NCBI RefSeq assembly: GCF_037975245.1
Contig: NC_092561.1
Location: 13,327,001-13,391,000 of the forward strand
Direction: 5' to 3'
DNA length: 64,000 nt
Source of the DNA: Apostichopus japonicus
Taxonomy: Eukaryota; Echinodermata; Holothuroidea; Aspidochirotida; Stichopodidae
Under the pieces are notes generated by a model. It saw only the letters and a program-made list of their open reading frames with translations, was not told the DNA's origin and did not search any database. Positions 6,101-49,430 of this stretch are shown here, in pieces; positions within the stretch are counted from its first letter, which is position 1; the number at the start of each line of letters is the position of its first letter. Both the position numbers and the translations under genes were made by a program.

Positions 6101-7818
6101 GTACGAGTACAAATAGAATCTCTCTTGGTACGAGTAATAAGTAAAAAGCTCTTAGTGTGAGTTAGAGTGCTTATATTTGCTATATAATCTATATTAGATC
6201 CTCAAATGTCCCCAGTACCAGTGCGAACACACAAGGAAGTCTACAACATTATGAATACGAGGACAAATAGAATACCTCTTGGTACGAGCAACAAGTAAAA
6301 AGCTCTTAGTGTGAGTTAGAGTGCTTATATTTGCTATATAATCTATACTAGATCCTCAAATGTCCCCAGTACGAGTGCGAACACACGAGGAAGTCTACAA
6401 CATTATGAATACGAGTACAAATAGAATACCCCTAGGTATGAGTAACGAGTAAACAGCTCTTAGTTTTGAATAAGAGTGCCTAAATTTGCTGTAGTATCTA
6501 TACTCAATCCTCAAATGTTCCCAGTACGAGTGCGAACACACGAGGAAGTCTACAACATTATGAATACGAGTACAAGTAGAATACCCCTTGGTATGGGTAA
6601 CGAGCACAAAGTCAAAGAGGACTTAATTTTGCTGGAGTTTAGATACTAATACAAAGATATCCCTATAATATCCACGAGAAATGAGTACTACATGCCACCT
6701 TGCTAGAATACTAGTACCACTATACAGACCCCACTAGTATGCTCTGATTGCAAGCATTGGGTTTTGTTTTTGTCTCAGGTTGTCCCTGAGACCTCTAAAG
6801 CTGAAGGTTTTAAACAATGTATATCTTTTGTGTCTAAGTTAACCTGTTATTCAAAGAAACGGCGAAACGGCCCTGCAAGGCAAAGGAGAGTTAGGTCTTA
6901 CGGACGTCAATGTTTTTTGAAACTGACTGAAAGCAAGTCAGTTTTCCTTTTGTTCGTCTGAGGAATTGATTGTAAAAGTATATGTAGAAGCTAATCGTTT
7001 CACTGTCATGTCTTCTAGGCATTGTGTAATTAGGATCTAGGATTAGGACATTAATTTAGTAAATAAAAGTAAACCAACCTCTAGAGAGAACATAGTCCAT
7101 AAGATCATGAAAACAACGATATTGTTGGTAATATGAAGGATGTCACATTAGCAAACCACTACTTATTACAACAATTCCAGGCTCACATTTATGAGAAACA
7201 ATGAGAAACAAGTATCACAGAAAGGCCTTAAGAAATTAGATGTTACTATTTAACGTAACGTTTTTGTCATTAAAATGTATATTGTTATGATGCAGCATGT
7301 TACTTTAAAGGTTAACTACGCTAATTGATGTTATACAATTCTTAAAAGGTGTAACTATTATGCTAATTTGTAAACGTAGAACACAATCAGTGAAGTTCTA
7401 AGCTACGGTCGAGTAACCTCACCGAATGTCATATACATTAGTTTTCAAGGAGTGGCTCGGTCTCTTCTCCCAGTGGCACCAACCTACCTTGCGTGCGCGC
7501 TAAGTTAACTTTAAGTATTAAGGTATGTAATGTATTTATGCTAAGTTATATATTTTTGTTACCAAGAGACACGTATTAGATTCATTTTAAATACTTTTAA
7601 TTCAAGTTATACTTTTTTTAAAGACAGCAATATTTATTTCATCATGACGGTAAAGGAAAAGTATTAACTATCCTCACCTTCAAAGTCACAATTGGTAGTG
7701 TGAAACACACCAGAGCGGAAATCACAAGGAGTAAGTCCTTTCGGTAGACGAACCTTATAGCCCTTTGGTGTAGCCTGGCCAGCGCATCGAACATCCCGGC
7801 TACCATCAACAAACAATC
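1..7818 (-). CDS. Multi-exon modular extracellular protein with a cbEGF array (partial gene)
   Basis: Eleven minus-strand exons are supported by acceptor/donor pairs and open frames, in transcript order 7678-7818, 5399-5524, 4856-4981, 3957-4085, 3601-3726, 3243-3368, 2964-3089, 2694-2819, 2290-2415, 1335-1457 and 1-106. Every internal exon is symmetric phase 1-1, the standard arrangement of shuffled extracellular modules. Nine exons each encode one calcium-binding EGF domain starting D-[IVL]-D-[ED]-C with six cysteines. The gene runs off the left edge, and no signal peptide or start was found upstream of 7818, so both ends are missing. The product is probably secreted or a cell-surface adhesion or receptor protein; the family (fibrillin, fibropellin or notch-like) cannot be decided from this part. 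The EGF exons are certain in kind; joining 7678-7818 and 1-106 into the same transcript is inferred from strand and phase. Confidence 0.8.
107..1334. other. Intron of the cbEGF gene, no gene seen
   Basis: AT-rich non-coding sequence between the terminal module exon and the last cbEGF exon. No further exon with splice sites, no clear repeat. Confidence 0.5.
1335..1457 (-). CDS. cbEGF exon (most 3' of the array)
   Basis: Phase 1-1 exon of 123 nt with acceptor ending at 1458 and donor gtaaga after 1335. It encodes DIDEC followed by five further Cys, with N-T-I-G-S-Y between Cys 3 and 4, the usual beta-hydroxylation and Ca-binding consensus. It is more divergent from the repeated group at 2.3-3.7 kb and closer to the 4856-4981 exon (both have ...W..[DE].QC near the end). 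Confidence 0.85.
1489..1648. repeat. (ATGG)n-related tetranucleotide repeat
   Basis: About 160 bp of imperfect GGAT/GGAC/GGGAT repeats between the cbEGF exon 1335-1457 and non-repetitive intron. It produces long open frames (IHPSIHPS-type on the minus strand) that are not genes. Confidence 0.92.
2290..2415 (-). CDS. cbEGF exon, duplicated group copy 5
   Basis: 126 nt, 42 codons, phase 1-1, acceptor tttcag and donor gtaagt. Encodes [14 protein letters not shown] with six Cys and the [10 protein letters not shown] Ca-binding core. Nearly identical to four neighbouring exons; the flanking intron sequence is repeated too. Confidence 0.88.
2503..2735 (-). repeat. ~110 bp direct duplication containing a truncated cbEGF exon end
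   Basis: A stretch at about 2503-2612 is repeated nearly exactly at about 2625-2735. The first copy holds only the last 41 nt of a cbEGF exon (2572-2612, with its donor) and then breaks off, so it has no acceptor and cannot be spliced as a module. The second copy continues into the full exon 2694-2819. Confidence 0.8.
2694..2819 (-). CDS. cbEGF exon, duplicated group copy 4
   Basis: 126 nt, phase 1-1, acceptor tttcag, donor gtaact. Encodes [14 protein letters not shown] and the same [10 protein letters not shown] core as its neighbours, with Y-I-T-G-S-L-C-E at the end. Confidence 0.88.
2964..3089 (-). CDS. cbEGF exon, duplicated group copy 3
   Basis: 126 nt, phase 1-1, donor gtaagt. Starts DIDDC rather than DIDEC: the Glu next to the first Cys, a usual Ca ligand, is replaced by Asp. 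N-Q-V-A-N-Y-C replaces N-Q-V-E-N-Y-C. Otherwise the standard six-Cys module. Confidence 0.86.
3243..3368 (-). CDS. cbEGF exon, duplicated group copy 2
   Basis: 126 nt, phase 1-1, acceptor tttcag and donor gtaact. [14 protein letters not shown] start, core [10 protein letters not shown], then E-C-F-S-G-Y-Y. Six Cys all present. Confidence 0.87.
3601..3726 (-). CDS. cbEGF exon, duplicated group copy 1
   Basis: 126 nt, phase 1-1, donor gtaact. [14 protein letters not shown] start and the conserved [10 protein letters not shown] core. The most upstream and slightly more diverged member of the near-identical group. Confidence 0.87.
3957..4085 (-). CDS. cbEGF exon
   Basis: 129 nt, 43 codons, phase 1-1, donor gttagt. 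Encodes [14 protein letters not shown] with core [10 protein letters not shown]. Closest relative is the exon at 5399-5524 (both [10 protein letters not shown]), indicating an older duplication separate from the 2.3-3.7 kb group. Confidence 0.86.
4856..4981 (-). CDS. cbEGF exon with a GC donor
   Basis: 126 nt, phase 1-1. Acceptor is a clean cag at 4984-4982. The expected end of the exon after the sixth Cys (codons for C-H-G) is followed by GCAAGT, not GT; this keeps both length and phase identical to the sister exons. It fits the rare but known GC-AG intron class, which tolerates the GC when the rest of the donor is strong. Encodes [12 protein letters not shown] and [10 protein letters not shown]. 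Confidence 0.82.
5399..5524 (-). CDS. cbEGF exon (most 5' of the array seen)
   Basis: 126 nt, phase 1-1, acceptor tttcag and donor gtaggt. [14 protein letters not shown] start with [10 protein letters not shown] core and six Cys. A (GA)n run lies just downstream in the intron at about 5347-5378. Confidence 0.86.
5702..6612. repeat. 154-155 bp tandem satellite, about 5.9 units, intronic
   Basis: Unit starts (gagtgct/gagtgc) fall at 5702, 5857, 6011, 6165, 6319 and 6474, spaced 154-155 bp. Each unit carries CCCCAGTAC[GC]AGTGCGAACA and a GTACGAGTA-rich second half. The array sits in the intron between 5399-5524 and 7678-7818. Open frames running through it are by-products of the repeat. Confidence 0.9.
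7678..7818 (-). CDS. Exon of unidentified Cys-containing module, upstream of cbEGF array
   Basis: 141 nt (47 codons), phase 1-1, acceptor tatttctttag and donor gtgagg. The frame contains [17 protein letters not shown] and ends [16 protein letters not shown], with three Cys. Splice sites, phase and strand fit the cbEGF gene. I do not recognise the fold; spacing of Cys is not EGF, CTLD or sushi. 2.1 kb of intron including the satellite separates it from the first EGF exon. Confidence 0.6.
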
Positions 7819-13701: not shown

Positions 13702-14784
13702 TATCTTACCCTTACATGTTGTGTAGCGATCGGCATTCAAGAGGGTGTAACATACTAGACTTGGTTATGACATATAACTCTTATCAAGCTTTTTTTAATG
13801 GGTCTCTTTTTAACTAATCAGCCTGACGTTTGTACGACATTGTGACAGTGGGTACTTTAACGAAGCTTTGGTTATACGGCATTGAATATTACGGTTACAG
13901 CCTTTCACGCAAGACATGGTTGAATTATTAAGGTTATACAGTCTTTATACTGATATCATCATTTCGAACTGTAGCCTAGACGAAATTTAATATAGATAAA
14001 AAGCTGTTCAATGTAACTTGTAAAATAATTATTATAGGATAATAATTACTCAAACTAAGGCGACGATTCTGTTGTGGACAGTTAATATTTTGCCTAATGT
14101 TAGCCTACAAACTTGGCTCTATACTTATAGGAAGTATCACTGCTTTTAAGAAGTCATTCGAAATTACAAAGTAAGCTGAATAAACCAAATTACACATTTA
14201 AACCAAACTGAAATATACAATTAAAAAAAAAAAAATTGAAGCAGATTTCAGACGATTTTTGTTGTGGAGTGGGGGTAGAGGTGGTTGTTTGTTTGTTTGT
14301 TTGTTTGTGGGGTTTGTCTTTGCTAAGTTGTACAAACAACTTTAAAATTGTAAGGTAAGGATGATGTCAGGCTAGAAATCTTTGGCGTTTGAGACGTTTT
14401 CAATGGGAACATAAACACTTAGAACCATGATAGACAATAACAAAAAAGTATGGTGCATCTTGGCGTCAAAGACATAATAATACTGATAAATAAAATGCTG
14501 ATGTGTAATGAAAGAAAAGATGTAGAGCAAGGTAGATTTGACTAAAAACTACTACAATGTGTAGTAAGTATTAGTAAATAACTTTATTTTTCTACACTAA
14601 TCCTTAACAACATTCCATTAATAAGATTCATAATTTAAAAGGAAAACATTGTAATATATATAGATCATCTCTAATTGCTAAATTGCTTTGTTATTGTATT
14701 TTGACAAATAACATGGTACTGGTTACTTAGGACTATTAACAATATTTTGCTGTTACATACTATATATATACATATATGTATGTA
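13702..14784. other. Non-coding flank of the large DNA transposon
   Basis: AT-rich with a (GTTT)n run at about 14286-14308 and a (TA)-rich target region at 14759-14784. No gene seen. Confidence 0.5.
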
Positions 14785-14879
14785 CACTGTTAAAAAAAAT
14801 TCTGTTAAAAAACAGAATTTCTCTGGCAGCAGAGTTTCCAGAAAATGTCTGTTATTTCCAACTGCAGATAATCTATGTA

Positions 14880-15545
14880 AAATAAACAGTCTAAAACTGT
14901 TATTTATACAGTTTATATCTTTCATTATAACAGTTTTTGTCCGGAAAACTTACTGTACGACGACCGTTATTTTACACCATATTCCATGTAATATAAACAG
15001 TCTGAAACTGTTATTTATACAGTTTTTCACCCATTATAACAGACTCTATTCGTAAAATTACTGAACGACGACCGTTATTTTACATCATATTCTATGTAAA
15101 ATAAACAGTCTGAAACTGTTATTTATACAGTTTTCCCCCCAATTATAACAGTTTATGTCCGTAAAATTACTGTATGTCAACCGTTATTTTATACCATATT
15201 CTATGTAAAATAAACAGTCTAAAAATGTTATTATACAGTTTTTCTTTGCATTATAAAAGTCTTTGTCCGTAAAATTACTGTACGACGACCTTAATTTTAC
15301 ACTGAATTCTATGTTAAATACACAGTATGAAAGCGTAATTCATACAGTTTTTCTTTGCATTATAAAAGTTTTTATCCGTAAAATTACTATATGACGGCCG
15401 TTATTTTACACTACATTCTATGTAAAATAAACAGTCTGAAACCGTTATTTACACAGTTTTTTCTTGCAATATGTAATTTTCTCTGTAAAATAACTGTATT
15501 GTGACTTTTAATTTACTGTATCTTTTAGGTAAAGTCTAGTCTTCA
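14880..15545. repeat. Left subterminal tandem repeat, ~109 bp x 6
   Basis: AAACAGTCTGAAACTGTTATT blocks begin at 14884, 14995, 15103, 15212, 15320 and 15429 (spacing 108-111). Each unit also has CCGTTATTTTACA and GTAAAATTACTG. Part of the transposon's left end; in CACTA elements such repeats are thought to bind transposase. Confidence 0.85.
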
Positions 15546-16967
15546 ATGTTATCTATAGTTTATTTCCTTGCAATAAATGGGTCTTTGTCTGTAAAATTGG
15601 CTGTCAGATGGCATTACTATTATCAGTGAGATTATAAAATAAAAACAACTTATTGTTCTCTTAAACTTTTATTTACAACTTCAAAACTTGTTGAAAAGTA
15701 ATATATAAGACTGAACATCAGAAGGCAATCTCTTATTGATGACTGGGAATTTGCTGGGTGCCCCAGCCTTTCTTTTGGAAAAGGTTTTGTTATACAGACG
15801 ATACTTTCATTGTTTGGAAATATACTGATAAGTCTGTATGTGGCCATATTTGTCTCTTCGGCCACTTCAGGAAATCCTGGATCAGCCACTGAAAGTTTTC
15901 ACAATTAACTGATCATAAAACACTAAGCTTTGACACCTGCTAGTTCCTCGCCCTTTCTATTGCTCTACAACAAAGTTCCTTTCCCTCTTATTTACAGATG
16001 CACTTGAAGTATGCAAAGGTCACTGTATTATGTGACCACAGAAACTTAGGTATCTTCACTATTCTTCACTTAACTTTATTACAACTCTGTTCATTTCATG
16101 TATTTCTAAATGTTCTAGCATTATTAAATATATCGCTCATATAACATATTCACTTTAATGGGCATATCAATGTTCACAGAAAATTAATACCTTTAACTGT
16201 GGTAACTCCTCTATCGCTGATAAGGATTGTATACTTTTTCTAATTTTCATGACCTTCTTTAGCCCTTTAAGTTCAAAGTGGAAGTTAAAGACAAGGATAT
16301 GTTACAATACGTAAGAATAAAGATTAACTAATCTGTTAACCAAAGATATTGTAAATCATCTGATCAAAAGATATATAAACAATGATTTGACCTTTGTACC
16401 TGTAAATGATTAAAAAAGTTGTCCTTATATTCCTGTGCTTCTGCTGTTGAGTGGAAGGAGCAGTTTTATGAAAAGATTTCATGTCAACATTTAGCAGAGA
16501 GATTTTATATTTTGACAACAAAATATAGTTTAGATATCAAGCTTATAGCATTAACAAAGTGAACAGAATAACTTGACATCTGAAACTTTTATGGATTCAA
16601 AACTTTTCTAACATTTGTGAACCTGCTTGGAAGAGTTTCAGAGTTTGTGGAGTTATTGGAAAGGTGTCATGATAGCACCAAATAATAGTCTTTAACAATT
16701 TTGTCAACAAGTAAAACCTTGTAAATATCCACCAACAAAGTTAAACACAATAGTTTGAACTCTGTATAAATGTTTAACTGTTCATTTGTAAATGAGACTT
16801 CTCTGTAGCTGGAGAGTCTATGGTTCCAGTTAAGGAGGCTCAAGAGGCTCGCTAACATTTTCTCAACTAGGAACACTTTAAATCAACCAAGTGACCTAGA
16901 TTTATAATCCAAAGTTACCAAATTGTCAGACTAATGTGACCAATCACGGGAAGTGCCTGAAAAGCAT
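15546..16967. other. 3' non-coding part of the transposon
   Basis: Between the left subterminal repeats and the stop codon of the accessory gene. An 80-codon open frame (15650-15889, minus) lacks recognisable similarity and lies beyond a good stop, so I do not call it. Confidence 0.5.
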
Positions 16968-17097
16968 TTAGACTGTCCAATCTGACTCAAACTCCTTCAG
17001 GTTTCCAACCAAAGCCAAAATTTTTGGGTTGACAGGATAGCTCTTCTTGGATTTGGGGGTCTTTCTTCCCTTTTCTGGATTCAATCCAACAAAGCAG
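16968..17097 (-). CDS. Accessory gene exon 5 (C-terminus)
   Basis: Acceptor tttgcag, enters in phase 2 after exon 4 (CG|C). Encodes CFVGLNPEKGRKTPKSKKS, then PVNPKILALV, ending D-W-T-V and TAA. The F-x-G-[LI]-N-P-E-[KR]-G pattern is the usual C-terminus of the family. Confidence 0.72.
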
Positions 17098-17847
17098 CTG
17101 CAAAGAGGAGCAAAATTAGAATTGTGAAGTCATAAAGTTCAAATAAGTTTGCAATTATTAAACCATTTAACAATTAATTTCCCTTGGTCTCAAATTTACA
17201 CTACAGTATGTCATACATGATAGTAAGATGTGACACAACTCAGTTTCCAATTGTATGTGTGCTCACTGGTGTTGATAGAAGCAATTGAGCTGGATACCTG
17301 TCTTAATTTACAAGCCTTTGGAATTCAACAGTTTTCTAGGAAATCATGATCTGAAAAGAAGAGCTAATTTGTGAATTCTCTTTTAATTTTAATTTTGTTC
17401 AGTTTAAGCTGATACCCTATAGTTGCAACAAATTGTGAAGGTGTTCTCAGTAAGTAACCAAACTCATACATTCCCACCCTTTTCCAAAATAATAAAACAT
17501 GCCATTCAACTATTTACACTAACTTTCCATTGGTGAAAATAATGTAAAGGTCATCAATGTTTACAAAAGGTTACCAAAGCTGCTGTTATTCTTGGACCAC
17601 AACAAATAGTACAAAATAAGTAAATCAGCTGTAACTGAGAACAGAGTATGATTTATTTCAATGATCTGCCTAGGAGTAGAGTTAACTGCAATTTGTTGAT
17701 TTTTTTTTCTTTATTGGTACGTTTATGATCGGCTGATCTTTTGAAGGTGGCTAATAATATGCATACACTCTTACATTCCATGTCAAGGGAATGTCCACAC
17801 AAAATAACAATGGTTAACTATTACTAGGGTACTTTCAGCCTACTCAC

Positions 17848-18018
17848 CGCTGGATAAACTCCATTAAAGTTGCACCTTCAGATGGATACTCAATGTTTAA
17901 GATAAAAAAAACATTGCAAACAGCATGGTCATTGCACTTTCAAAAGTTTGAATGTGGTCATTAACAATAACCATATCTACTGCCAACATAAACTTTCTTC
18001 CAGTGTACATGTTTGGAC
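17848..18018 (-). CDS. Accessory gene exon 4 with homopolymer frameshift
   Basis: Acceptor ttttgcag, donor gtgagt. First part reads GPNMYTGRKFMLAVDM then IVNDHIQTFESAMTM. After M-F-F the frame runs into a stop, while the shifted frame continues ILNIEYPSEGATLMEFIQR to the donor. The switch coincides with eight consecutive A (plus strand 17904-17911). Either a true indel or a sequencing error in the homopolymer. Confidence 0.7.
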
Positions 18019-18957
18019 CTGCAAAAAATAAATATCAATTAGAACTATTAAGAGAATGTCCAGTTAAAGTTAATGCCACTGCTATGACTACCACTACTTT
18101 ACAGTTGCAGCGTGAATATACTCCAACTCGCGTGCACTAATGGGTCATTATTTTTTATTCAATATTTACCGGTATTCAAGGTTTGTTTCGGATGCACTTG
18201 GTATTTTGATATATTTGTTGATGGCAGATTTCAATATTGTCAGTGTGGATATGAAAGAAAAAACAGTTTATATGATATATTGATTTACTGAGGCACCCTC
18301 AGCAACACAAAAATGACATTGAAAATGTTGCAATGGTCAACCAAAATGTTTTTACCACATATGAAGTCAAAAATGGGCTATAGTTCTTGAGTTTCATGTT
18401 ACATGCTGAGCATCAAATGCACACATACATGCTGAATTGATGCAGTAACAGAGTTTTCCCAGTTAAATCTCAGATGGACTCATGACTTTGTCTTCCACAG
18501 GTGATAGTGCACTATGGGGTGTCATTGACACACTTGTCATCATATAACTTCCTAGGTTTCTCTAATCAAAGATTCCCAAATTTTGACCCCTGTTGATTCA
18601 AGTGACCACACCTACATACCACATGAGATCTTTCCAAGATTCCCTTCTTGAGATATCATGTTTACAAAGTATTCAGTTTCACCTCTGTTGACCCCAAATG
18701 ATCTTTGACCTTTGCCAAAAACAACAGGCTTCTTGTACTCTATCGGGTACACCCACATGACAACTATGAGATCTGTCTAAGCTTCCTTTCATGAGAAATT
18801 GTGTTTACAAGGTAGGTATCACTAAAATACATACATACACACGCACACATACTCACCATCACAAATTTCAAACGTTACAACCAAAAAGGGAAAAAGAGCA
18901 GTGTATATGTACTGGAGGAAATGCATCTTAGAGCAAAATCCTCCAAATGCTTCTCAC

Positions 18958-19024
18958 CTTGAATAATGATGCATGGGGATGTTGACTTCAGATCCTTAGT
19001 GATATTCTGCACAGTACTGGTTTC
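18958..19024 (-). CDS. Accessory gene exon 3
   Basis: 67 nt with acceptor tgttcag and donor gtgaga, phase 0 in, phase 1 out. Encodes ETSTVQNITKDLKSTSPC then I-I-I-Q-G, matching the short TPCI[IV] segment that follows the main domain in SAMD3-like proteins. Confidence 0.7.
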
Positions 19025-19462
19025 CTGAACATAATGTAAATGTAGGAACAATAAAATTGTTTGGAATACTTATCTTATTATATAGTGGGACAAAACATTC
19101 AAGATGCCATCTGGGAAAACAGGAGTTTCTTCCAAAGCATAACATAAAACAATGAAACTGAGGGACAATATGTATCCCTGAAATCAAAATGATGATAATG
19201 GGGAAGATCTTAATTAACTGATGGCATATGATGTACTGAACTTTGGACTTCAGAGTCCCAATACACAACAATTACAGCTGACCTACAAACAGTGAACATC
19301 GCTGAGGAAAATCGTTATAAAGTCAATCAACTTGACCAATACATCTACATAACTGTAAGTTTAAGAACGACAAACCAGAGCAAAACACAAAAACACAGAC
19401 AAATAGTGCTATTCTGAGACTGTTCACAAGCTTAATGATTTATAAAGGTAGCAACTTCTTAC

Positions 19463-20380
19463 CTTTGCAAGGTAGAAAAGATCGTCCCATTTATCTCCAA
19501 GGTGATTGCAGAGGAGGAGAATAAGTCCTGGAACATCAGAGGAATGATCACCACTTTCCTTCTTAGTACTCTCCACATCAGCTATTATATTTTGCACCTC
19601 CTTCTTCTTCTTTGCTGACACTTGCAGAAACTTCTGAATTCGTGGACTTTTATCTATAAAAGCTGTAGTGAGAACTGATTTCAGTTTGCTGCCCACTAAA
19701 TCTTCAAAATGTCCCATCATCCCAACCTCCTCAAACAAGAAAGGATATTCATCAAGGAGAGCACATACAGGAACTTGCTGACTGTTTATCTTGGCACGGA
19801 TGGTTGGAAATACAGTTTTCATGAGGAAAACAACCTCATTGTCATCCCATATGTTAAGTTCATGCATCACCTTTAAGTCATCTATCTTTTTTCTCTGCGT
19901 GTCTCGATCCTCCCCTTCAGGTAGGTCCTCTGGTTGCCAGTTTTTGCAGCCATATGAGGTGCTGAGTTTACCCTTCTTTGTTAGTGCTCCATTCTGTTCA
20001 CCCTCTACAAACAGGGGGTAACCAACATTTAGGTGAAATTTGCCTCTATTGATATTGCTCATACGGTTTTCCAACTGTGTAAGAAGGGATGCATATCCAC
20101 TACCAACAACAAGTCCTTCAATGTCATCTTTAAAGGGTTCTGGAAACTCACGAACGATCTTCTGTGCAATAATAGAAAGGTGCTTTCGTCCTGGACTTGA
20201 CTCAACTTTCATTATGTCATTGCAAAATATTCTGATCATTTCACGCCGATCTTTGGGAGTGGGTCTCTGTTTCTTCTGCTGGACTTGATCCTGCTGAACT
20301 GGGCACCCAGCTGCAGCCTGGTGAACTGGCCACAGAGTCGGGTTCAGATGATTGTGAAGATTCTGATCCAAGCAACTTTT
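19463..20380 (-). CDS. Accessory gene exon 2 (main conserved domain)
   Basis: Long exon with acceptor ttcttaaag and donor gtaaga. The conserved frame spans about 300 codons: QRPTPKDRREMIRIF, then KHLSIIAQKIVREFP, IEGLVVGSGYASLLTQLENR, GCKNWQPE, NEVVFLMKTVFPTIR and CALLDEYPFLF. Its first ~120 nt are open in a second frame that is the phase expected from exon 1 (Ser-rich, as in the family linker). This points to a frameshift near 20.29 kb rather than a separate start. Confidence 0.72.
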
Positions 20381-20614
20381 CTTTAAGAATGAAAATATGT
20401 CACATCAATGAAAGTAGATGATATGAAATGAATAAACAACCTTGATAAATTATTTCCTGATAACAGACATTTATTGCATTAAGGTACTAGTTTTTGGACA
20501 CTCACAGAACATCAGCATTTACACAACAAACAGGGGCAGCACTCAAGCTCGCAATCTATCGAATCAAGCATATCTTCAATTGGCAACAGGGGCATTCTCT
20601 GACACGTCTGTTTA

Positions 20615-21008
20615 GGTTGCTGTGGCCGAGTAGATAAAGGCGGTGGCATTTTAAGCAATGAGGCTTAGCAATTGGGAGGTTCGGGGTTCGATTCCCGGCC
20701 GGGTCATAGTAAGGTGGGTTTTTCAACCAAGAGCAATCTACGGTTTTCCCATCTGAAATGACTTTCTAAATTGAAAAGATTCCAAATTTGAGTTAAAATG
20801 TTGAATTGGAAGCCACCCGACGTGTAAGTTGTAATTCATAAGCCCTTGCGGTCTTCTCCCACATTTGTGGTCGCTTAAGCGTCGTAAAAATAACTGCTGA
20901 TTATTATTATTATATTATTACTATATCATATTATTATTATTACTATATTATTATTAATATTATTATTATTAATATTATTATATATTATTATTATTATTAT
21001 TATATTAT
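20615..21008 (+). mobile_element. tRNA-derived SINE (family A), full-length copy nested in the transposon
   Basis: The head (20615-20705) folds like a class II tRNA (Leu/Ser type). It has an A box at TGGCCGAGTAGATAAAGG, a B box at GGTTCGATTCC and a GGCCGGGTCA end. An unrelated body of about 185 bp follows (TTTTTCAACC..CCCATCTGAAATG..GTCGCTTAAGCGTCG), then a long (ATT)n tail to about 21008. Related copies lie at 9300-9512 and 49156-49430. It interrupts the intron between exons 1 and 2 of the accessory gene, so it is younger than the transposon insertion or the ancestor of that copy. Confidence 0.85.
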
Positions 21009-21894
21009 AGGTTAAGTCGCTGCTTGTTTGTTGACGTAGGCAATGGCTTTGTACACATGTACACACCGTACCGTATGCCATATGGACCTTGTGCATAAGC
21101 ATCGGACAAGGCGTGCTTTATAGTTTAAGTTGTCAAGGTGTATTCTTATACTGTATGGAAAGCAAGCCATTGCCACAGTTCTCTGCATCTTTCAATCAGT
21201 ATAACCAAAGTGTGAAATTATTGGGGCAATTTTTGTTGATTATTGGATACAAGTGTTTTGGGGCAAAGTAACACTCATTCATATCAAATTGTTGCGTCAA
21301 TGGCATTATTTGGTCACTGCAGACGTTTGCGTAGTGCCCGCTTATTTGGACCCCAAAGTGGGGGCCAAGTATGATCCCAGATTTGAGGTACCCCATACTA
21401 CCCCATAGTGGTTGTTTTTCAAGGTGACCTCTAGCCTTGTCATACTCTCATATGAACCTCAACATACTCTACAAACAACATAGAACGTACGTTCTATGTT
21501 TAATTTGAATTAAAAAGAAGGGTTTCCTCTTTTCTTGATGATAAATATTTTAGTTTGGGTATGTGGTGTATCATTTCATTAGTTTGACCTGGTGATTTCT
21601 GTGTGTTCTATTTGCTCACTACTTGAAAACTACTTAAAAATATTCAAATCTAATGTATAATACTAATAATTAACCAGAAATTTTCTTTAGAGAATTACAA
21701 AAATGCTAATGATGTACTATGAGACCAGTTTCCTTTTTCAATTTGTGGTACCAGCAACTGTCTTAGACAATAAGAGAAACTTCTGTGTATCACATGTACT
21801 TACTATTTAGACATTTTTCCATCTCCTCTTGTAACTTACTTCTTAACCTCCCCTTTCACCTCTCCATTCCTCAAAAAAAGGAGGATAATCATAT
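21009..21894. other. Intron of the accessory gene
   Basis: Between the SINE tail and exon 1. No further exon with matching phase was found that would repair the exon 1-exon 2 frame. Confidence 0.45.
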
Positions 21895-21923
21895 TTAGAA
21901 AGTGCAATTATATTTCTGCTTAC

Positions 21924-22158
21924 CTGCCTTGTTTGCCCATGCTAGTAACAGCTTTCTCCTCTGTATTGGCTTCAGTACACTGGAAAGGTCATCATCAGTG
22001 ATCAGCTTGAGATCGCACACACTTTCCACACCAGCAGCCAGGAGCTGTTCAACTACTTTGTCCACCATTTCAAGTGGCAGTGAAGGAAGATGCTGCATTA
22101 TGGATGAAGCAACATCTTCAAGACAAATTGTATCATCTGATTGTTCTGACACGCTCAT
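21924..22158 (-). CDS. Accessory gene exon 1 (SAM-like N-terminus)
   Basis: Starts at ATG 22158 and ends at donor gtaagc in phase 1 (GCA G|). About 78 residues, with LPLEMVDKVVEQLLAAGVES, a DL..ITDDDL segment and L-K-P-I-Q-R-R-K-L-L-L-A-W. The last motif is typical of SAM-like domains in this protein group. Upstream codons are acidic and Ser-rich. Confidence 0.65.
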
Positions 22159-22562
22159 TTTAAAAAGAGAACCTCAGACCTGAGTAATGGAAGTGAAGGT
22201 TTTAGTTCCTTCTCAATTCAGAATAATTCATATGCGACATTTGCTTACTATAAGTTTCTTTGTAAGGCCCATTATATACTCCTAGTTGTTCCATAATTGA
22301 GCTTGCACTAAAACATAGTTCTTTAAATGGAAGGCACTTTACATGTAAACACAAAGCCTTAATTAGATATTAATTGATAATTATTTCATAACTTTACAAC
22401 AGTTTTTCTGCAGTAATATCAACAAATGCATAAGCTATTTAACAAGTACTTGTATGTAATGCTTCAAGTTCATTAGCATGGTTCTAAGAGAAGATGATAC
22501 ATTGCACCATCTTAAGTCAATGAAAATACGCCCCAGTTGTACAGCATTTGCCACTTACAGGC

Positions 22563-25304
22563 CTATAAAAGCACTGCAGCTAATGGCTTATGCTTTAGTG
22601 AAAGCAAAAGCCTTCCTCTCACAAAATATGCCGACAATGGAAAATAATCAGCAAGCTTAGAAATCTGCACACAAGACACTATATTCAAAGGCTGCAAACA
22701 GTAAACTCCAGTGGTGTGATTGAATGATCCACTGTGCATCTTTACGACAAGGTACACAATATTTTGGCTTTCAACAACTGCAAACAAAATGCAACCCAAT
22801 TTAAGACTTGAAAAGCATGTATCAGAACACTGACATATTACAAAGAAACCCTTCTGGTAAGAAGTGCCAAACATCTGAACTCTGTCACTGATAACAGAAT
22901 CATCAAACTTTACATTTGCTGCCTGCAAAGCATGCTTTATTTCAGGCATGAAACATTCTATGTTGAGGGATGTGGCATTTTCAATAACCAATCTATCTGG
23001 ATATATTTTCCCTGAGCTGTTATAAGCTTGAAAGTACTGGTGTTGATTTGCTAAAGACTGTGTAACATTGATGAAATTTTGTGCAGATCTGGCACAACGT
23101 TTGAAATAGGAGTGCTTACTTTCGAAGCGTAAAGTCCACACTCTCATTAATGGTCCAAACTTAATAATTAAATCTGGATAGTGGCTCAGGAAATGATGTT
23201 TTGGTCTGAGGGGAGTATCAGCAAAGAGTCGTTTTCTCTCAGTCAAGTATTCCTCCATTATCACCCTTAAATATGCAAGTTGCTCATGTGAAATCTTTGG
23301 AGAACACACATACTCAACAACTTCTCGTAAAAGAAGAAAGAGTCTCCATACAAGGTCATTATGATCTTTAACATATGCACTCAAAATAATTGGAAGAAGT
23401 CTCAAAAGGTTCCAGTTTTCAACGGCTTGACCACCTAAGCGGTTACCTGATAAATTTACAAATGCAGGTTTATTGTTTGCATCGCGTCCTTGAAATTTAA
23501 ACTGTACCAACATTATATTCAAATCTGCATATGTGAACCAATGTTTTTGTTAAATCCAGTATTGAATAAACATGGCTACATCGTAATCAACAACTCCTTC
23601 AAACAAGTCGTGCCCCAGGCATGGTGGCAAACCAGGTGCACACACATGGAATTACCTCAAAGAATTAAAACATGAATTAAATTTAATTCCTTGATGATGA
23701 TTTTCTTCATGATCTTCAAGGTGTGCAATGCAAGAATCATACTCCTCCTTGGTTCTAGGCTTCCCAACAGCATATGGTGCGTTACATTTGAAGTCATGTG
23801 AAGTTATTAAACAGTAGCGGCACATGTTATTTCCTGAAAAACTCTCAATGAAACCCCCAATACAATGGGAACCTAAATTATCCCCTAATATACAAGACAG
23901 CGCACCTTTCCAGACCACCCCGTCATTTGTTTCTATTCCACCTTCCTCTAATGTTTTTAAATCATTTATCACTCTCTCAAAAACCTTCTGCTGCCCAAAG
24001 ACCTTAAAATCAACTTCTTTACACAAAAACACAAGCTGCATTGCATCAACAACAGATCTGTACTCAGGTTGGATGTTTCCAAGTGTAAAGTACATTGCTA
24101 GTATTTTGTGTTTTTTTCTTGCCGACCCAAGTGGGTTTACAATTTCAAATGAGTCTTGATAGAGAATGATGGACAAAGATCTTTCACAACTTTGAAACAA
24201 ACTATTTTTTTTAAAAACTGTACCATCCACTATGTCAGTAAGAACAGATGAGTCTTCACTTTGATGCCTACTTTGACATTGTCCCAACACAAAATCATCT
24301 GAAAGGAGCAATTCAATGCTCTCCTTGATTGGAATGTAATGATAGTAATGCATTTTTTGTGCTGAATCTCTCCCTAGTGATATTGCAATTGGAGCAACAA
24401 ACTTGAATGCTGATTTATAGTACTCTTTTCTACAGTGCTGCGATCTGAGTTTTCCTTTACAACTATCAATAGCAATCCATGCATCTATCTCATTCATATA
24501 ATCGGCTACACATTTGATACGTTCTTCTGCTAAACCCTCATCTCTCAATTTTTGAGTAATTTTCAAAACCTGATCTTGTTGACATAAACTGTGAATAGTT
24601 TGAAGCTCCTCAACAATCATTTGAATCGTTTGTGATGGAACAAGTTGTTTTGCCTGAAGTTTCAGAAGAAACAAGGCAAAATTTTGTTGAAATTGAAGCC
24701 TAGACTGACCTGTTTCTTGCGCCCTACCTTGGCAATTGTTACTGTTTTCGAAATCACAGCTTATGTCATTTTCACTGACAAATCTATCAGTCTCTGTAGA
24801 CACATCAAAGCAGTTAGTGTCTAGAGGTATATCTTGATCCAAAGAGCAATGATCACGAGTAGAAAGTTTGTATTTATCCAAAATGTTTACAGCTCCCCAG
24901 TTTCTGTGACAACGTGATAAATGTGCTGTAAATGAACTGGTTTTTGAAAAATCTCTTTTGCACTTCTTATATGGACAAGATACAATTTGTCCTTTTCTTA
25001 TATGTGCTTTTAAGTGTGCCAAATATGAGGACAAATCTGTGAGTTCTTTTTGACAGATTTCATACGTACAAATCAATGACAGGTTAACTGACTGAAGATT
25101 GGCTGCAACTGCTGTTTGCTTTTGAAGATGGCGGTGATACCTAGTCACATGAATCTTCATTGCAGCAAAAGTTGATAGGGTATAGCCACAATTAACAAAA
25201 CAACATGGAAATCTCACTCGAGGTATATTCCTATGGGAACTCACGTGATCAACATAGCTACGGATAGTAGCTGTTTGTGCATTGCATATTTTACAGGTGT
25301 ACAT
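22563..25304 (-). pseudogene. EnSpm/CACTA-like zinc-finger transposase, disrupted by two stops and a frameshift
   Basis: Starts at ATG 25304. The first 550 codons (to 23655) hold four C2H2 fingers (about residues 4-24, 34-57, 79-102, 110-133), a likely first catalytic Asp at D384 (LYQDSFEIVNPLGS), D475 in ILGDNLGSHCIGGF, and a C-R-Y-C zinc knuckle at 495-498. The last 319 codons (22563-23522) contain LRPKHHFLSHYPDL, K-F-G-P-L-M-R-V-W and RFESKH, the probable catalytic Glu. The conserved bridge between them (CAPGLPPCLGHDLFEGVV) is present at about 23625-23560 but in another frame. A TAA at 23653-23655, loss of two bases in a TG run just after it, and a second TAA near 23546 break the frame. 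Layout matches animal CACTA/CMC transposases; catalytic residues are inferred by pattern. Confidence 0.75.
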
Positions 25305-26935
25305 TTCTGCCCTGCTTCACTATTGATTGGAGCTTATCAAAACTGATAATATGAAAGAAACATGAATTATGCCTTTTCAAATTCAGTCATGTTCTAAAAG
25401 GCTTAACCTATGCTAATCTAAAGACTGCATATTACATGCCACATGAGAGCCAATATCATCCATGTATGTAGGCTATCAGCACCAATTAACTTACAAGTTA
25501 CAATGTACCCACCCTTATATCATATTAACCTAAACAACATGAAGCAAGGCTAAGCTTCACAAGCACATATCAAAATGCACGGTAGGGCGACGATAGGTGG
25601 TCTAATACAGCGCCAGTGTTACTATAGTGATAGTCTAACTCTTAATTATCGTTCGTCTAGTCTACGTTATAGGCACTGGGCCCTACGTTTATAACTAAAA
25701 TATAAACTAACTTTTTGTTATGACCAGACTTTCAAAGTTGTTTTGTTGATTATAATAATGCAAATGTGGCATATGGTTCAAATAATTTACCACTCACGTC
25801 TAACGAAGTACTCAATGAAGTCTTGTTCTGGTGTGGAAATGTGCGTAGCCTACTGGACGGCAACGGCAGTTGTTTTCCTCTCGTGTCGACGTACTTTGAA
25901 GCGCTGTAGTATTGTATTGTGCAATCTATACACTTCATACGTACGTGCGAGATGCGATCAATCATAATGTACAGAACAGCGCAGCATGTACTGGACGTTC
26001 ATCGCGCGCCAACTTGGGTCATGTGACTGCATGTTGGACTGTAGCCAAGTTTTCCGGGAGAGCCAACGTCAGCCGCCCAGAATGTATCAAAATAATTCCC
26101 GCCTGTGCGCGAGACGTCATAGCTGTTACAGACACGTTGACGCCAATCATCGAGCTAGACCGGCTGGGTCGAATTGGAGGAGGGGTTGAGGGGGGGGGGG
26201 TGGTTCAGATGAATGAAATGACATTTGCTGTACAAGACATATTTAACAACATTTTGATACGTTCGGTGACCCATTGAGCTATAAATAGCTGTATGTGTGA
26301 CCGTACATTGAGCACACGGAATTGTCATCGGTTCATGTTGTACTGACAATACAAGTTAACATTAAAACAATGAATTAGACTACATCTTGAAGGCTGGGCA
26401 TTGTATTCTTGGCAGCTCACATCAGTAATTGTTTTGAAAGGATCTCGGAAGTTGTATACTCCTTAAACAAACGGTAAACCAATTGGAACAGTACCATCTA
26501 TGTCGTTTTCATTAGTTAACACGTTAGGCATTTACAAGTAATTCGTTACTAAAACTCTTGAAATGGTTAGATTTCACATATTTGACCTACAGACCCTTCA
26601 AGGTTATCTTTCACATTGTTTTCGTTCACTGGACAATTAAGGGTCATTGATAAGCCTCACGGGGGTGGGGGTTGTTGCTCAAATGTAACACTAAGGCAGA
26701 AAACGACTGTAGGGACAAAGTAAACTGGTAATTGTTGGTTGGATCATGGAGCTATCGGTAATAGCTTCATGGTTGGATTTCATTCTTTTCTTTGCCAAAC
26801 GGTAATGTTAATGCACGATGGATTTTGTTGTATACCATTGTATATTGGTAACGTGTTTCCACCTTCAAGAATATTTCCGTATAACGCTCTTCAAATTCCC
26901 ATTTTACATGCATTAGATTGCAAAACAAACTTATT
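25305..26935. other. 5' region of the transposon, partly GC/CpG-rich
   Basis: Upstream of the transposase start on the minus strand. 25830-26210 is GC- and CpG-rich compared with the rest, ending in a poly-G run at about 26189-26201. An AGCTATTTATAGCTC TATA-like palindrome at about 26276-26290 could serve either strand. Reasonable place for the element's promoter; no coding frame is convincing. Confidence 0.35.
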
Positions 26936-26939
26936 CTGT

Positions 26940-27330
26940 AAAGTACATGACACACATAACGTCTGTAAAAATCACAGAATTTTACATGTAAATATAAAAA
27001 AACTGACATATTCTGGAAAATTTTACAGGATTATCCTGTAAATTTTCATTGGAGGGAAAAATACTACAATTTTTTGTAAACCACTTGCTGTAACATAAAA
27101 CGTCTGTAAAAATCACAGAATTTTACCTGTAAATATTAAAAACTGACATATTCTTGAAAATTTTACAGGATTTTCCTGTAAATTTTCTTCGGAGGGAATA
27201 ATACTACAATTTTGTGTAAACCACTTGCTGTACAGAAAACGTCTGTTAAAAAAACAGACTTTTACATGTAAATGTAGAAAACCGGCTATTTCTGTAAAAT
27301 TCGACAGGAATTTACTGTAAATTTACAATT
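26940..27330. repeat. Right subterminal tandem repeat, ~140 bp x 2.7
   Basis: CGTCTGTAAAAATCACAG starts units at 26960, 27101 and 27240 (spacing 139-141). Units contain paired TTTTACAGGA/CCTGTAAATTTT inverted motifs. Ends at the CACTG terminus. Sequence differs from the left array but is built from the same CTGTAAA/TTTACAG words. Confidence 0.85.
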
Positions 27331-27343
27331 TTTTTTAACAGTG

Positions 27344-27435
<92 letters not shown>

Positions 27436-28439: not shown

Positions 28440-29500
28440 TGGGTAGGGGCTCTTTGTATGGGTCTGACAACCCCTTCCCGACCAGCAATTTTGTCAGATT
28501 TCCTTTTTTTTTAATGTACAGACATACTACCTTCTTTTGACAAAATTTGGTCTATGTGCTAGATGGGGTGAAATCAACCCGCTTTTTGGGGGTTGGGTGA
28601 GGGTGACCTTTATGGGGGTCTGACAACACCGTCCCGACAGGGAATTTTGTCAGTTTTACACTTTTTGTAATGTACATCCATACTACTTCCTTTTGACAAA
28701 GTTTGGTCCATGTGCTAGATGGGGTGAAATCAACCCGCCTTTTTGGGGTGGGTCAGGGTAATCTTTGTGGGGGTCTGACAACGCCTTCCAGACCGACAAA
28801 TTTGTCAGTTTTTCCAATTTTGTAGCATACTGCCATGCTACTTCCTTTTGCCAAAGTTTGGTCCATAGGCTAGATGGGGTGAAATCAACCCGCCTTTTTT
28901 TGGGGGGGGGGTGGGTGAGGGTGACCTTTGTGGGAGTCTGACAACACCCTCCCGACCAGCAATTTTGTAAGATTTCCCTTTATTTTAATGTACGGACATA
29001 CTACTTCCTTTTGACAAAGTTTAGTCTGTGGGCTAGATTGGGTGAAATCAACCCGTCTTTTGGGGGGTGGGTGAGGGTGACCTTTGTGGGAGTCTGACAA
29101 CACCCTCCCGACTGGGAATTTTGTCAGTTTTACACTTTTTGTAATGTACATCTATACTACTTCCTTTTGACAAAGTTTGGTCCATGTGCTAGATGGGATG
29201 AAATCAACCCGACTGGGGGTGACTTAGTGGGGGGTCTGACAACCCCTTCCCGACCAGGAATTTTGTCAGTTTTACCTTTTTTGTAATGTACATCCATACT
29301 ACTTCCTTCTAACAAAGTTTGGTCCATGGGCTAGATGGGGTAAAATTAACCCGTCCGGGGGGTCTTTTTCAGGGGGTCTGGGGTCCAAACCCGACCACTG
29401 GGGTTGAGCTGACAATTTTTTTTGTGAATGACCTAGATGGTCTAAGTAACTTTAAGGGGTCAAACCTTCTGGGCTAAATGGGGTGAAATCATATGTGACA
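28440..29500. repeat. ~155 bp tandem array, about 6-7 units
   Basis: GATGGGGTGAAATCAACCCG recurs at 28562, 28717, 28873, 29036, 29192 and 29334, with a degenerate last copy near 29477. Spacing is mostly 155-163 bp (one 142). Units share GGGGGTCTGACAAC, CCGAC..G.AATTTTGTCAG and CTACTTCCTTTTGAC. Distinct in sequence from the 154-bp satellite at 5.7 kb. Confidence 0.88.
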
Positions 29501-31691: not shown

Positions 31692-33456
31692 GAAAGTTAG
31701 TCATGTCCTTCCTGAATGTTCAGCCCATGAGGTTGAATGGTACGAAGGCGTTGCATCCAGAGCCTCTCTCTGCTGATTCGTACTAGGTCAGGACGGCTAC
31801 CTAAGGATTCAATCCCCTGTAGGGACATGTCGTTAATGGTATGGTTGGGAAGGTTAAAATGTTCTCCAACTGGGGTCTCAGTCTTCATGGTGTTGACTGT
31901 GGATCTGTGACCATATAATCACTTCTTGAGGGTGGTTTTGGTTTCGCCAACATACTGGATGCCGCAAACTCTACAAGAGATCAGATAGATGACATTGGTG
32001 GTAGTGCAAGTGATGTGACCCTTAGTCTTGTGTGTGAGTTGCATGCTGTGGCTGGTGATGGAGTTGGATTCAACAATGTGAGGCTGCAGACGATGCATCT
32101 CGAAGTACGATCACATTTAAAGGTACCATGCTGAATGGGTGTGGGGTTAGAAGTTAGAGGTGGAACAGCAGCGCGTACAAGAAGGTCTCGTAGGTTGCGT
32201 GGTCGTCTGTAGGCGATGATGGGTTTTTCAGGGACGGCTCGTTGGAGTCTATCTGAAGTGAGGAGAATGTTGTGGTTGTTAGAGGTGATTTTCTGAAGGG
32301 GAGGAAGATTTGGGTGGAAAGTAACAACCAGGGGCAGCTTGTTGTCGCAATCTCGTCCCTTTTTGTCCTTCACTGCCAAAGTAGATGATCTGGAAAGGGA
32401 GCGGACTCTCTGAATGGCTTCACGCACCCTTCTGGCACTATGGCCCCTGGCAATAAGGTGTTATTCCAAAGCATCTGTATGGCGAATGAAAGAGGAATTG
32501 TTAGAGCAAATGCGACGAAGACGAAGTGCTTGACTGTAGGCAATTCCAGACTTGCAGTGACGGGGATGGCAGCTTGAAGAATGGAGATACTGGTGTGTGT
32601 CTGTGGGCTTGGTGTATAAGTCTGTAGAGAGAGAACCGTGTTCCTTGCGAACAGTCACATCGAGAAAGTTAACCTGTTGGTGAGAGTAATCAGAGGTGAA
32701 TTTGATGGTGCTGTGGAAAGAATTGATGTGATTGATGAAGGTGAGCAGGCTATCCTCATCACTGGTCCAAATGAAGAAGATGTCATCAATGTAGCGCCAC
32801 CAGATTAGGGGACGGCAGGGAGCCGTACTGAGCATGCGTTCTTCAAGGCTAGACATAAACAGACATGCAAAGGAAGGAGCCATCCTGGTACCCATGGCAG
32901 TCCCGTGTCTTTAAAGGTAATGCTTGTCCATGAACGTGAAGTTGTTTTTGGTGAGAACCTGTTGCATGAGAGCTTTGATGTCAGAGATGGGTGGACAAGG
33001 GTGGACCTTCTTAGACAGGGCTGCACACGTGGCTGCGATACCTTCAGCATGAGGGATGTTAGTGTACAGAGAAGTGACGTCGAAAGTACCGATGATGGCT
33101 GTACTGGGGATTTGGTTTTGATATCTTCAAGTTTCCTGAGGAAATCTGGAGTGTCATGGATATAAGAATTAATCTGAGGAACAAGAGGTTTGATGAAGTG
33201 GTCCACAAACAAGGATATCTTCTCGGTGGGGGACCCATTGCCCGAGATGATAGGCCTACCAGGGTTACCAGGCTTGTGAATTTTGGGCAGGAGATAAAAC
33301 CTGGCTGCCTTACAGTCTGTGGGAGAAAGGAAAGAAACAGCCTTCTTAGAGATCTGGTTCCGCTGGTACATATCAGTGATGGTCTGTTTTATCTGCTGGG
33401 AGAAAATATCTGTGGGATCAGAATCAAGAAGAGTGTAAAATCAAGAAGAGTGTAAA
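31692..33456 (-). pseudogene. Penelope RT/GIY-YIG polyprotein remnant
   Basis: N to C: RT motifs 1-2 (FYLLPKIHKPGNPGRPIISG near 33.26 kb), motif A region F-D-V-T-S-L-Y-T-N-I-P, motif B HGT.MGTRMAPSFA near 32.9 kb, motif C Y-I-D-D at about 32.78 kb, motif D/E NFLDVTV, a linker with IIAYRRPRNLRDLLV, Cys-rich C-x5-C, then G-I-Q-Y-V-G-E-T (the GIY-YIG signature) near 31.95 kb and an E-R-L-W-M-Q-R-L..GLN end at 31.7 kb. Several lesions are visible: a one-base loss near 33.12 kb, TAA after Y-L near 32.91 kb, TAA at 32461, a frame change near 32.08 kb and TGA at 31919-31921. The copy cannot make a full protein. Confidence 0.88.
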
Positions 33457-49155: not shown

Positions 49156-49430
49156 AGTATCAGTTATTTTTACGACGCTTAAACGACCACACTTGTGGGA
49201 GAAACCCGCAAGAACTTATGGATTACAACTTACACGTTCGGTGGCTTCCAATTCAACATTTGATCTCAAATTTGGAATATTTTCAATTAAGAAAGTCATT
49301 TCAGATGGGAAACCGTAGATTGCACTTGGATGAAAAACCCAACCTACTATGACCCGGCCGGGATCTAATCAGGAACCTTCTGATTGCCGCCGCCTATATC
49401 CAATCGGCCCCAGCACCGGCCCCAGCATCG
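49156..49430 (-). mobile_element. tRNA-derived SINE family A, near full-length copy
   Basis: Minus-strand copy of the 20.6 kb element. Body 49156-49340 (complement of GTCGTTTAAGCGTCG and CATTTCAGATGGGAAACCG); tRNA-like head at about 49345-49430 containing the complement of CCGGCCGGGTCATAG and a GGGGCCGATTGG A-box region. Lacks a long ATT tail. Confidence 0.8.

Follow-up and report, generated by a model that had tools for sequence, protein, structure and literature searches.

A 12,559-bp element in a 64,000-nucleotide stretch of the Apostichopus japonicus genome (the window; NCBI RefSeq assembly GCF_037975245.1, contig NC_092561.1, positions 13,327,001 to 13,391,000) is very probably a copy of an EnSpm/CMC DNA transposon whose family carries, as standard equipment, both a DDE transposase with zinc fingers and a protein with a SAM domain. 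The initial annotation had proposed that this second gene, whose product we take to be SAMD3-like (a provisional name), is the second gene of an EnSpm lineage. That proposal is now supported by eight of eight other pairs of ends, which enclose both genes, and by the pairing of the genes in diverged families. Because the identities of the two proteins fall in parallel from family to family and the SAM gene keeps an open frame in seven families, the element appears to need its SAM protein.

Ends, flanks and subterminal arrays

The identical 17-bp CACTG ends, the subterminal tandem arrays at both ends and the two same-strand genes between them, all described in the initial annotation, were each recovered. 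Both genes lie on the minus strand, which puts the 5' end of the element at 27343. Its outer parts are as follows.

14785–27343 (12,559 bp): whole element, from its ends, arrays, genes and flanks and from eight further paired-end copies of like content
14783–14784: TA, half of the target site duplication (TA/TA in the window; a 2-bp duplication in nine of nine copies)
14785–14801, plus strand: terminal inverted repeat on the SAM-gene side, CACTGTTAAAAAAAATT
14868–15461: subterminal tandem array, 109 bp × 5.5, continued by degenerate copies as far as about 15598
26958–27324: subterminal tandem array, 140 bp × 2.6
27327–27343, minus strand: terminal inverted repeat on the transposase side, the exact reverse complement of 14785–14801
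27344–27345: TA, the other half of the target site duplication (2-bp duplication in nine of nine copies)

The inverted match is perfect over 17 bp and diverges beyond. When the window was shuffled with a second-order Markov model, a perfect 17-bp inverted pair spaced 2–30 kb apart appeared in 0 of 200 shuffles if it had to start with CAC and in 7 of 200 if it had to start with CA. Within the element there is no internal copy of the 11-base end at up to one mismatch, and the 404-bp gap between the genes holds none at up to two. From the window alone, the length of the target site duplication is ambiguous because of a 6-bp TATGTA match within a TA microsatellite; the 3-bp flanks read GTA and TAT and are thus not a 3-bp duplication.

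The repeat units of the two arrays differ, with short words in common such as ATTTTACAG. At the SAM-side end, TGTAAAAT reaches a density of 6.55 per kb compared with 0.22 per kb in the window, and CTGTAAA reaches 12.4 per kb at the transposase-side end compared with 0.27 in the window. The two array-bearing sides have 18 nine-base words in common, a number equalled by 3 of 461 AT-matched control pairs; with ten-base and eight-base words, the observed level is reached by 4 and 57 of the 461 pairs, respectively.

Other copies of the family

We searched 671.6 Mb of genome in 35 contigs (C numbers below; the window is C1:13327001-13391000) for further copies with these ends, a check that the initial annotation had suggested. 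The exact 17-base end occurs 48 times (24 + 24), compared with 5 times (2 + 3) for the reversed control; at two mismatches the search was uninformative, with 1,247 matches against 1,700 for the control. Facing exact ends form eleven listed pairs, one of which (C12, 25.8 kb) in fact consists of two oppositely oriented copies. Eight of the nine other true pairs were retrieved, and all eight hold both genes in the same order and on the same strand, as expected of a two-gene DNA transposon, in which the second gene lies inside the ends of independent copies. Six of the eight span 13.3–13.7 kb, and the copy on C7 is internally deleted. Their proteins are mostly 94–100% identical to those of the window, with lower values for the C12 transposase (88%), a gapped exon 1 on C1 (76%) and an exon-2 piece on C7 (65%). 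For the ninth pair (C2, 20.7 kb), the tabulated matches place both genes within the ends, exon 2 being interrupted by about 7 kb.

Across the nine copies, including that of the window, every one is flanked by a 2-bp duplication (TA in seven, TG in one and CA in one), which fixes its length as 2 bp and excludes the 3-bp length seen in plant CACTA elements. These copies also bear on whether the two CACTG ends in the window came from separate short elements, with the genes as chance neighbours. Short lone copies of ends are common in such families, and two exact ends on C3 lie far from any SAM locus; however, this origin is refuted by the eight further pairs with the same content and their 2-bp duplications, and by the lack of an internal end copy, so that we assign it almost no probability. 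The other 46 of the 48 exact ends each terminate a copy with a SAM gene: 36 mark its SAM-side end and 10 its opposite end.

Separately, C4:160255-172311 contains eight one-mismatch copies of the end on one strand. Their spacing is 1,054 or 1,500 bases, apart from one larger interval, as though an end had been incorporated into a tandem array.

Pairing of the two genes in diverged families

Used as queries, the transposase finds families at about 98, 92, 52, 43 and 39% identity to that of the window, and the exon-2 protein of the SAM gene finds families at about 97, 91, 42, 36, 34 and 28%. The pair is kept in families whose transposase and SAM identities to the window are 52 and 42%, 43 and 36%, and 39 and 28%. 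Fifty of 394 transposase candidates were scored for the SAM gene; the 62 tabulated matches, less 17 further pieces, make up 45 loci, and at all 45 of these listed loci the SAM gene lies at most 16 kb downstream of the transposase, in the same orientation. Both ends could be placed in two diverged families, at C5:17327472-17341350 and C12:18895959-18909787; these copies end in CACTGTTAAAAA and are flanked on either side by TA, the 5' end being the sequence within 3 kb that best matched the 3' end.

The search was also made from the SAM side, where 100 tabulated exon-2 matches, less 40 further pieces, gave 60 rows and, with two C2 rows merged, 59 loci. Of these, 45 pair with a transposase among the tabulated matches (46 of the 60 rows), and reading the sequence revealed an adjoining transposase at six more (C7:9210335, C8:30155990, C12:5763302, C15:13922563, C7:2516854 and C12:21143028). 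At C7:2516854 this is only the tail, the last 95 or so bases, recognised by alignment to a sister copy, and at C12:21143028 the remnants are rearranged. Together with C15:13922563, these two loci were considered as possible host genes and rejected because transposase remnants lie upstream. An exact SAM-side end is present at 36 of the 59 loci and a one-mismatch end at 8 more, in a set of one-mismatch matches that extends only as far as C12.

The initial annotation held that a SAM gene at sites without transposon ends would speak against the two-gene reading, and the survey favours that reading: 51 of the 59 loci lie beside transposase sequence, five of the remaining eight carry an exact SAM-side end, and two are copies of element families. 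One of the latter, C5:21406569, agrees with another family member at 96% over the 674 bp upstream, and the other, C17:25559092, is a decayed member of the 36% family. The last, C21:6350194, is broken by stops, has nothing recognised in the 4.5 kb upstream and is unexplained. With the most distant exon 2 as query, 12 further loci appeared, from a fragment at 93% that belongs to the query's family down to pieces at 34–54%. We read two of them (C1:799700-804699 and C2:31538676-31543675), which are 93–97% alike over 2.9 kb, a likeness that begins exactly at CACTGTAAAAAAAATGGG; part of exon 2 is present, and no transposase was recognised at either. These repeats look like non-autonomous elements that retain part of the SAM gene, and such a family could possibly spread the SAM gene alone. 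Among the 59 loci assessed and these two of the 12 further loci, none could be recognised as a settled host copy.

This distribution bears on the idea that a single EnSpm family recently took up a host SAMD3 gene as a passenger with no role. Plant CACTA elements do capture host genes, and the SAM gene of the window copy is broken. However, the pair is retained while both proteins diverge in parallel, with frames still open, and none of the 59 assessed loci was shown to be host-like. Exon 2 has an open frame in seven families, with the others 25–43% identical to the family of the window and 20 columns invariant; the ratio of nonsynonymous to synonymous substitution across families was unusable since synonymous sites are saturated. 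A useless passenger would have decayed across such diverged families, and recent capture is thus largely refuted, leaving it a very small chance.

The transposase and SAM genes

The predicted coding parts, all on the minus strand, are as follows.

22563–25304: transposase, a single frame of roughly 913 codons whose N-terminal part has C2H2-like fingers (frame reading, motif series)
21924–22158: SAM gene exon 1, SAM-like domain (donor rank 1 of 605 GT sites; five-helix AlphaFold2 model, mean predicted local distance difference test score (pLDDT) 70)
19463–20380: SAM gene exon 2, coding for a conserved unnamed domain; part of it is missing here and the frame is disrupted (donor rank 4 of 605, acceptor 51 of 616)
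18958–19024: SAM gene exon 3, phase 0 to 1 (donor rank 3 of 605, acceptor 65 of 616)
17848–18018: SAM gene exon 4, in which a T-run alters the frame here (donor rank 2 of 605, acceptor 7 of 616)
16968–17097: SAM gene exon 5 with the stop codon (acceptor rank 2 of 616; 97–100% identity in eight other copies)

The transposase has the CMC motifs in order, with GDNLGSH at residue 478, CRYC at 499, HLEDH at 532 or HEENH at 536 and RFESKH at 730; the catalytic D and E presumably lie within this series. Matches to C2H2-like fingers at its start have a best E of 0.00042, under Pfam's cut-offs, and Pfam Transposase_21 gave no match to it up to E 10, although divergence can hide such a domain. In the window copy the frame is interrupted by TAA at 23654–23652 and 23552–23550. 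We considered whether splicing removes these stops, given a donor at the first, and dropped the idea, as just one of the seven acceptors in 23549–23381, a weak one, preserves the frame. Four of the seven other full-length copies that were read have no internal stops, and among the nine best full-length matches the open frame is 916–917 residues in seven and 918 and 922 in the other two.

The SAM gene runs from 22158 to 16968 in five exons, and its intron phases are consistent wherever neither of the two damaged exons is involved. Ranked with a consensus matrix, its four predicted donors are the best four of the 605 GT sites in 26500–16800, and the acceptors, starting with the one ahead of the start codon, rank 33, 51, 65, 7 and 2 of 616. 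Other copies revealed what is wrong with that of the window, where exon 2 has lost sequence and a T-run in exon 4 shifts the frame, and an alternative acceptor for exon 2 was dropped once they did. Elsewhere exon 2 has 995 nt, runs from phase 1 to 0 and is stop-free in five of the six copies where it can be read; exon 4 has 169 nt and is open in six of seven other copies. The element had been called complete, which is true of its structure, with ends, arrays and both genes in place, but not of its coding capacity: to judge from the damage to both genes, neither protein can still be made intact from the window copy.

A putative SAM-like N-terminal domain is supported by weak matches of the relatives' exon 1 to SAM models (SAM_TNK, E 0.00046) and by a modest model match; the window's own exon 1 matched no Pfam model. 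The conserved domain of exon 2 has no convincing Pfam or PDB family match, and AlphaFold2 modelling of it from a single sequence gave no usable fold (mean pLDDT 37.8). Profile searches of the exon 1 and exon 2 alignments against PDB returned nothing convincing (the SAM domain of SAMSN-1 came up at E 1.3), and no PDB search brought up SAMD3. Viral contigs were searched for relatives of both proteins and for three degenerate motifs with negative results, and one scan of prokaryote genomes was likewise negative.

CpG profile and transcription

Two further features concern the expression of the element.

25850–26300, minus strand: CpG-rich, promoter-like stretch upstream of the transposase (CpG observed/expected 1.11 compared with 0.302 over 16001–25000)
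20560–20900: nested repeat resembling a short interspersed nuclear element (SINE) in intron 1 of the SAM gene (other window copies at about 9424 and at 49160–49360; CpG observed/expected 0.91)

The low-CpG block at 16001–25000 spans both genes and the 404-bp gap, and its value is 0.302, whereas none of 68 overlapping 9-kb blocks elsewhere falls below 0.615. The ends of the element and the 25.85–26.3 kb stretch are CpG-normal, whereas the gene body is depleted, as if only the transcribed body were methylated. Neither AATAAA nor ATTAAA occurs between the two genes, and this, together with the single low-CpG block over both, fits one transcription unit, for which the CpG-rich stretch is a putative promoter. 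The SINE-like repeat is apparently tRNA-derived (GGTTCGATTCCC box), and ARAGORN calls no tRNA in it; as it is CpG-normal in CpG-poor surroundings, it is probably a later insertion.

One transcription unit could also be alternatively spliced so that its main product is a fusion of transposase and SAM protein. For this, a donor-like site is present at 22558, right after the transposase stop, and an acceptor-like site at 22179, shortly ahead of the SAM start; in maize Spm, several proteins are made from one unit (PMC1636069). However, these two sites score in a mediocre way (ranks 23 of 605 and 33 of 616), and the 916–917-residue transposase frame in seven of nine best matches points, by a comparison of lengths, to a similar end point. 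We regard a fusion as the main product as improbable.

Classification and relatives

The initial annotation labelled the element EnSpm/CACTA-type. The EnSpm/CMC part of the label stands, as does membership of the CMC/CMCT (EnSpm-Mirage-Chapaev-Transib) transposons: the transposase has the catalytic-region motif series, the termini are 5'-CA..TG-3' (CACTG..CAGTG in the window and eight copies), and the duplication, 2 bp in nine of nine copies with TA also in two diverged families, falls in the CMC/CMCT range of 2 to 5 bp. The element is not a CACTA element in the strict plant sense, as its ends are CACTG rather than CACTA and its duplication is 2 bp rather than 3 bp. Subterminal repeats are a feature of plant CACTA elements, as they are of the window element. 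The CMC motif definition that we used is the one given in PMC12730594.

Several known systems resemble the element in part. Plant CACTA elements such as En/Spm, with TNPD and TNPA, likewise combine a CMC-type transposase with two proteins per element (PMC4158355, PMC1636069), but have CACTA ends and a 3-bp duplication (PMC4158355) in place of CACTG and 2 bp. SmTRC1 of Schistosoma mansoni is an animal CACTA relative with a 2-bp duplication in 7 of 14 copies and two tandem reading frames in one clone, the second protein being proposed as a TNPA analogue; unlike the present element, it has CCC ends, 54-bp repeats and a Transposase_21 domain, which Pfam did not detect here (PMC1636069). For the second proteins of SmTRC1, no relatives were detected in other animal or fungal elements (PMC1636069). 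The fungal EnSpm, ESTA and Plavaka elements with TET/JBP genes also join an extra gene to a CMCT-clade transposon, with TA duplications in ESTA, although that gene encodes a dioxygenase and the hosts are fungi (PMC12730594). Finally, the Nuwa lineage is a two-gene DNA transposon whose second protein is DNA-binding, but it belongs to the Harbinger superfamily and that protein is of Myb/SANT type (PMC12730594).

A possible role for the SAM protein

We envision that the transposase would cut and paste the element at its CACTG ends and that the SAM protein would act as a transposition cofactor, filling by analogy the place that TNPA has in plant En/Spm. Both genes would probably be transcribed from one promoter at the CpG-rich 25.85–26.3 kb stretch, with the SAM protein made by read-through or by splicing past the transposase. 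The SAM domain could form oligomers, and the conserved middle and C-terminal parts of the protein could bind the subterminal arrays or the transposase, pairing the two ends. By this analogy, the most likely role of the SAM protein is to help bind and pair the array-bearing ends. In plant En/Spm, TNPA is needed together with TNPD and also acts on promoter methylation (PMC1636069).

A two-gene element could instead use its SAM protein as an anti-silencing or host-interaction factor, engaging for instance chromatin or the piRNA pathway, or as a modulator of expression. SAM domains are common in chromatin and signalling proteins, and the body of the element is CpG-poor, as methylated DNA becomes, whereas its ends and the promoter-like stretch are not. 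TNPA is reported to reactivate a methylated Spm promoter besides its part in transposition (PMC1636069). Our data do not separate such a role from that of a cofactor, and the exon-2 domain has no convincing family; we consider such a role possible but the less likely of the two.

Other features of the window

Elsewhere in the window, reverse-transcriptase pieces at 31984–33440 on the minus strand (RVT_1, E 0.00016, below Pfam's cut-off) look like parts of a putative Penelope-type element. A Cys-loop neurotransmitter-gated channel exon lies at 44361–45182 on the plus strand (Neur_chan_memb, E 6.7e-23) and an EGF_CA exon at 1321–1680 on the minus strand. Two more tandem arrays, with units of about 155 bp, occupy 28452–29353 and 5702–6601.

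Implications for SAMD3-like genes

SAMD3 proteins have an N-terminal SAM domain followed by a long conserved region, a layout that the SAM protein here would share. Elsewhere, SAMD3 and SAMD3-like genes are annotated as host genes, whereas the SAM gene here is transposon-borne; common carp Samd3 (PMC8945855) and zebrafish samd3-like (PMC7037442) are both treated as host genes in the respective papers. The literature that we searched yielded no paper linking EnSpm and SAMD3, and the element may already be catalogued in Repbase or Dfam. We tentatively put forward, at somewhat less than even chances, that all SAMD3 and SAMD3-like genes, including vertebrate SAMD3, descend from the second gene of CACTG-ended EnSpm elements, so that many would be live or dead transposon copies and SAMD3 itself a domesticated cofactor.

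The two-gene family gives animal EnSpm elements a second gene that has been retained through deep divergence, providing a testable animal counterpart of plant TNPA. Beyond this family, SAMD3-like annotations in animal genomes may be transposon genes, which would affect gene counts, association studies and our view of the origin of SAMD3.

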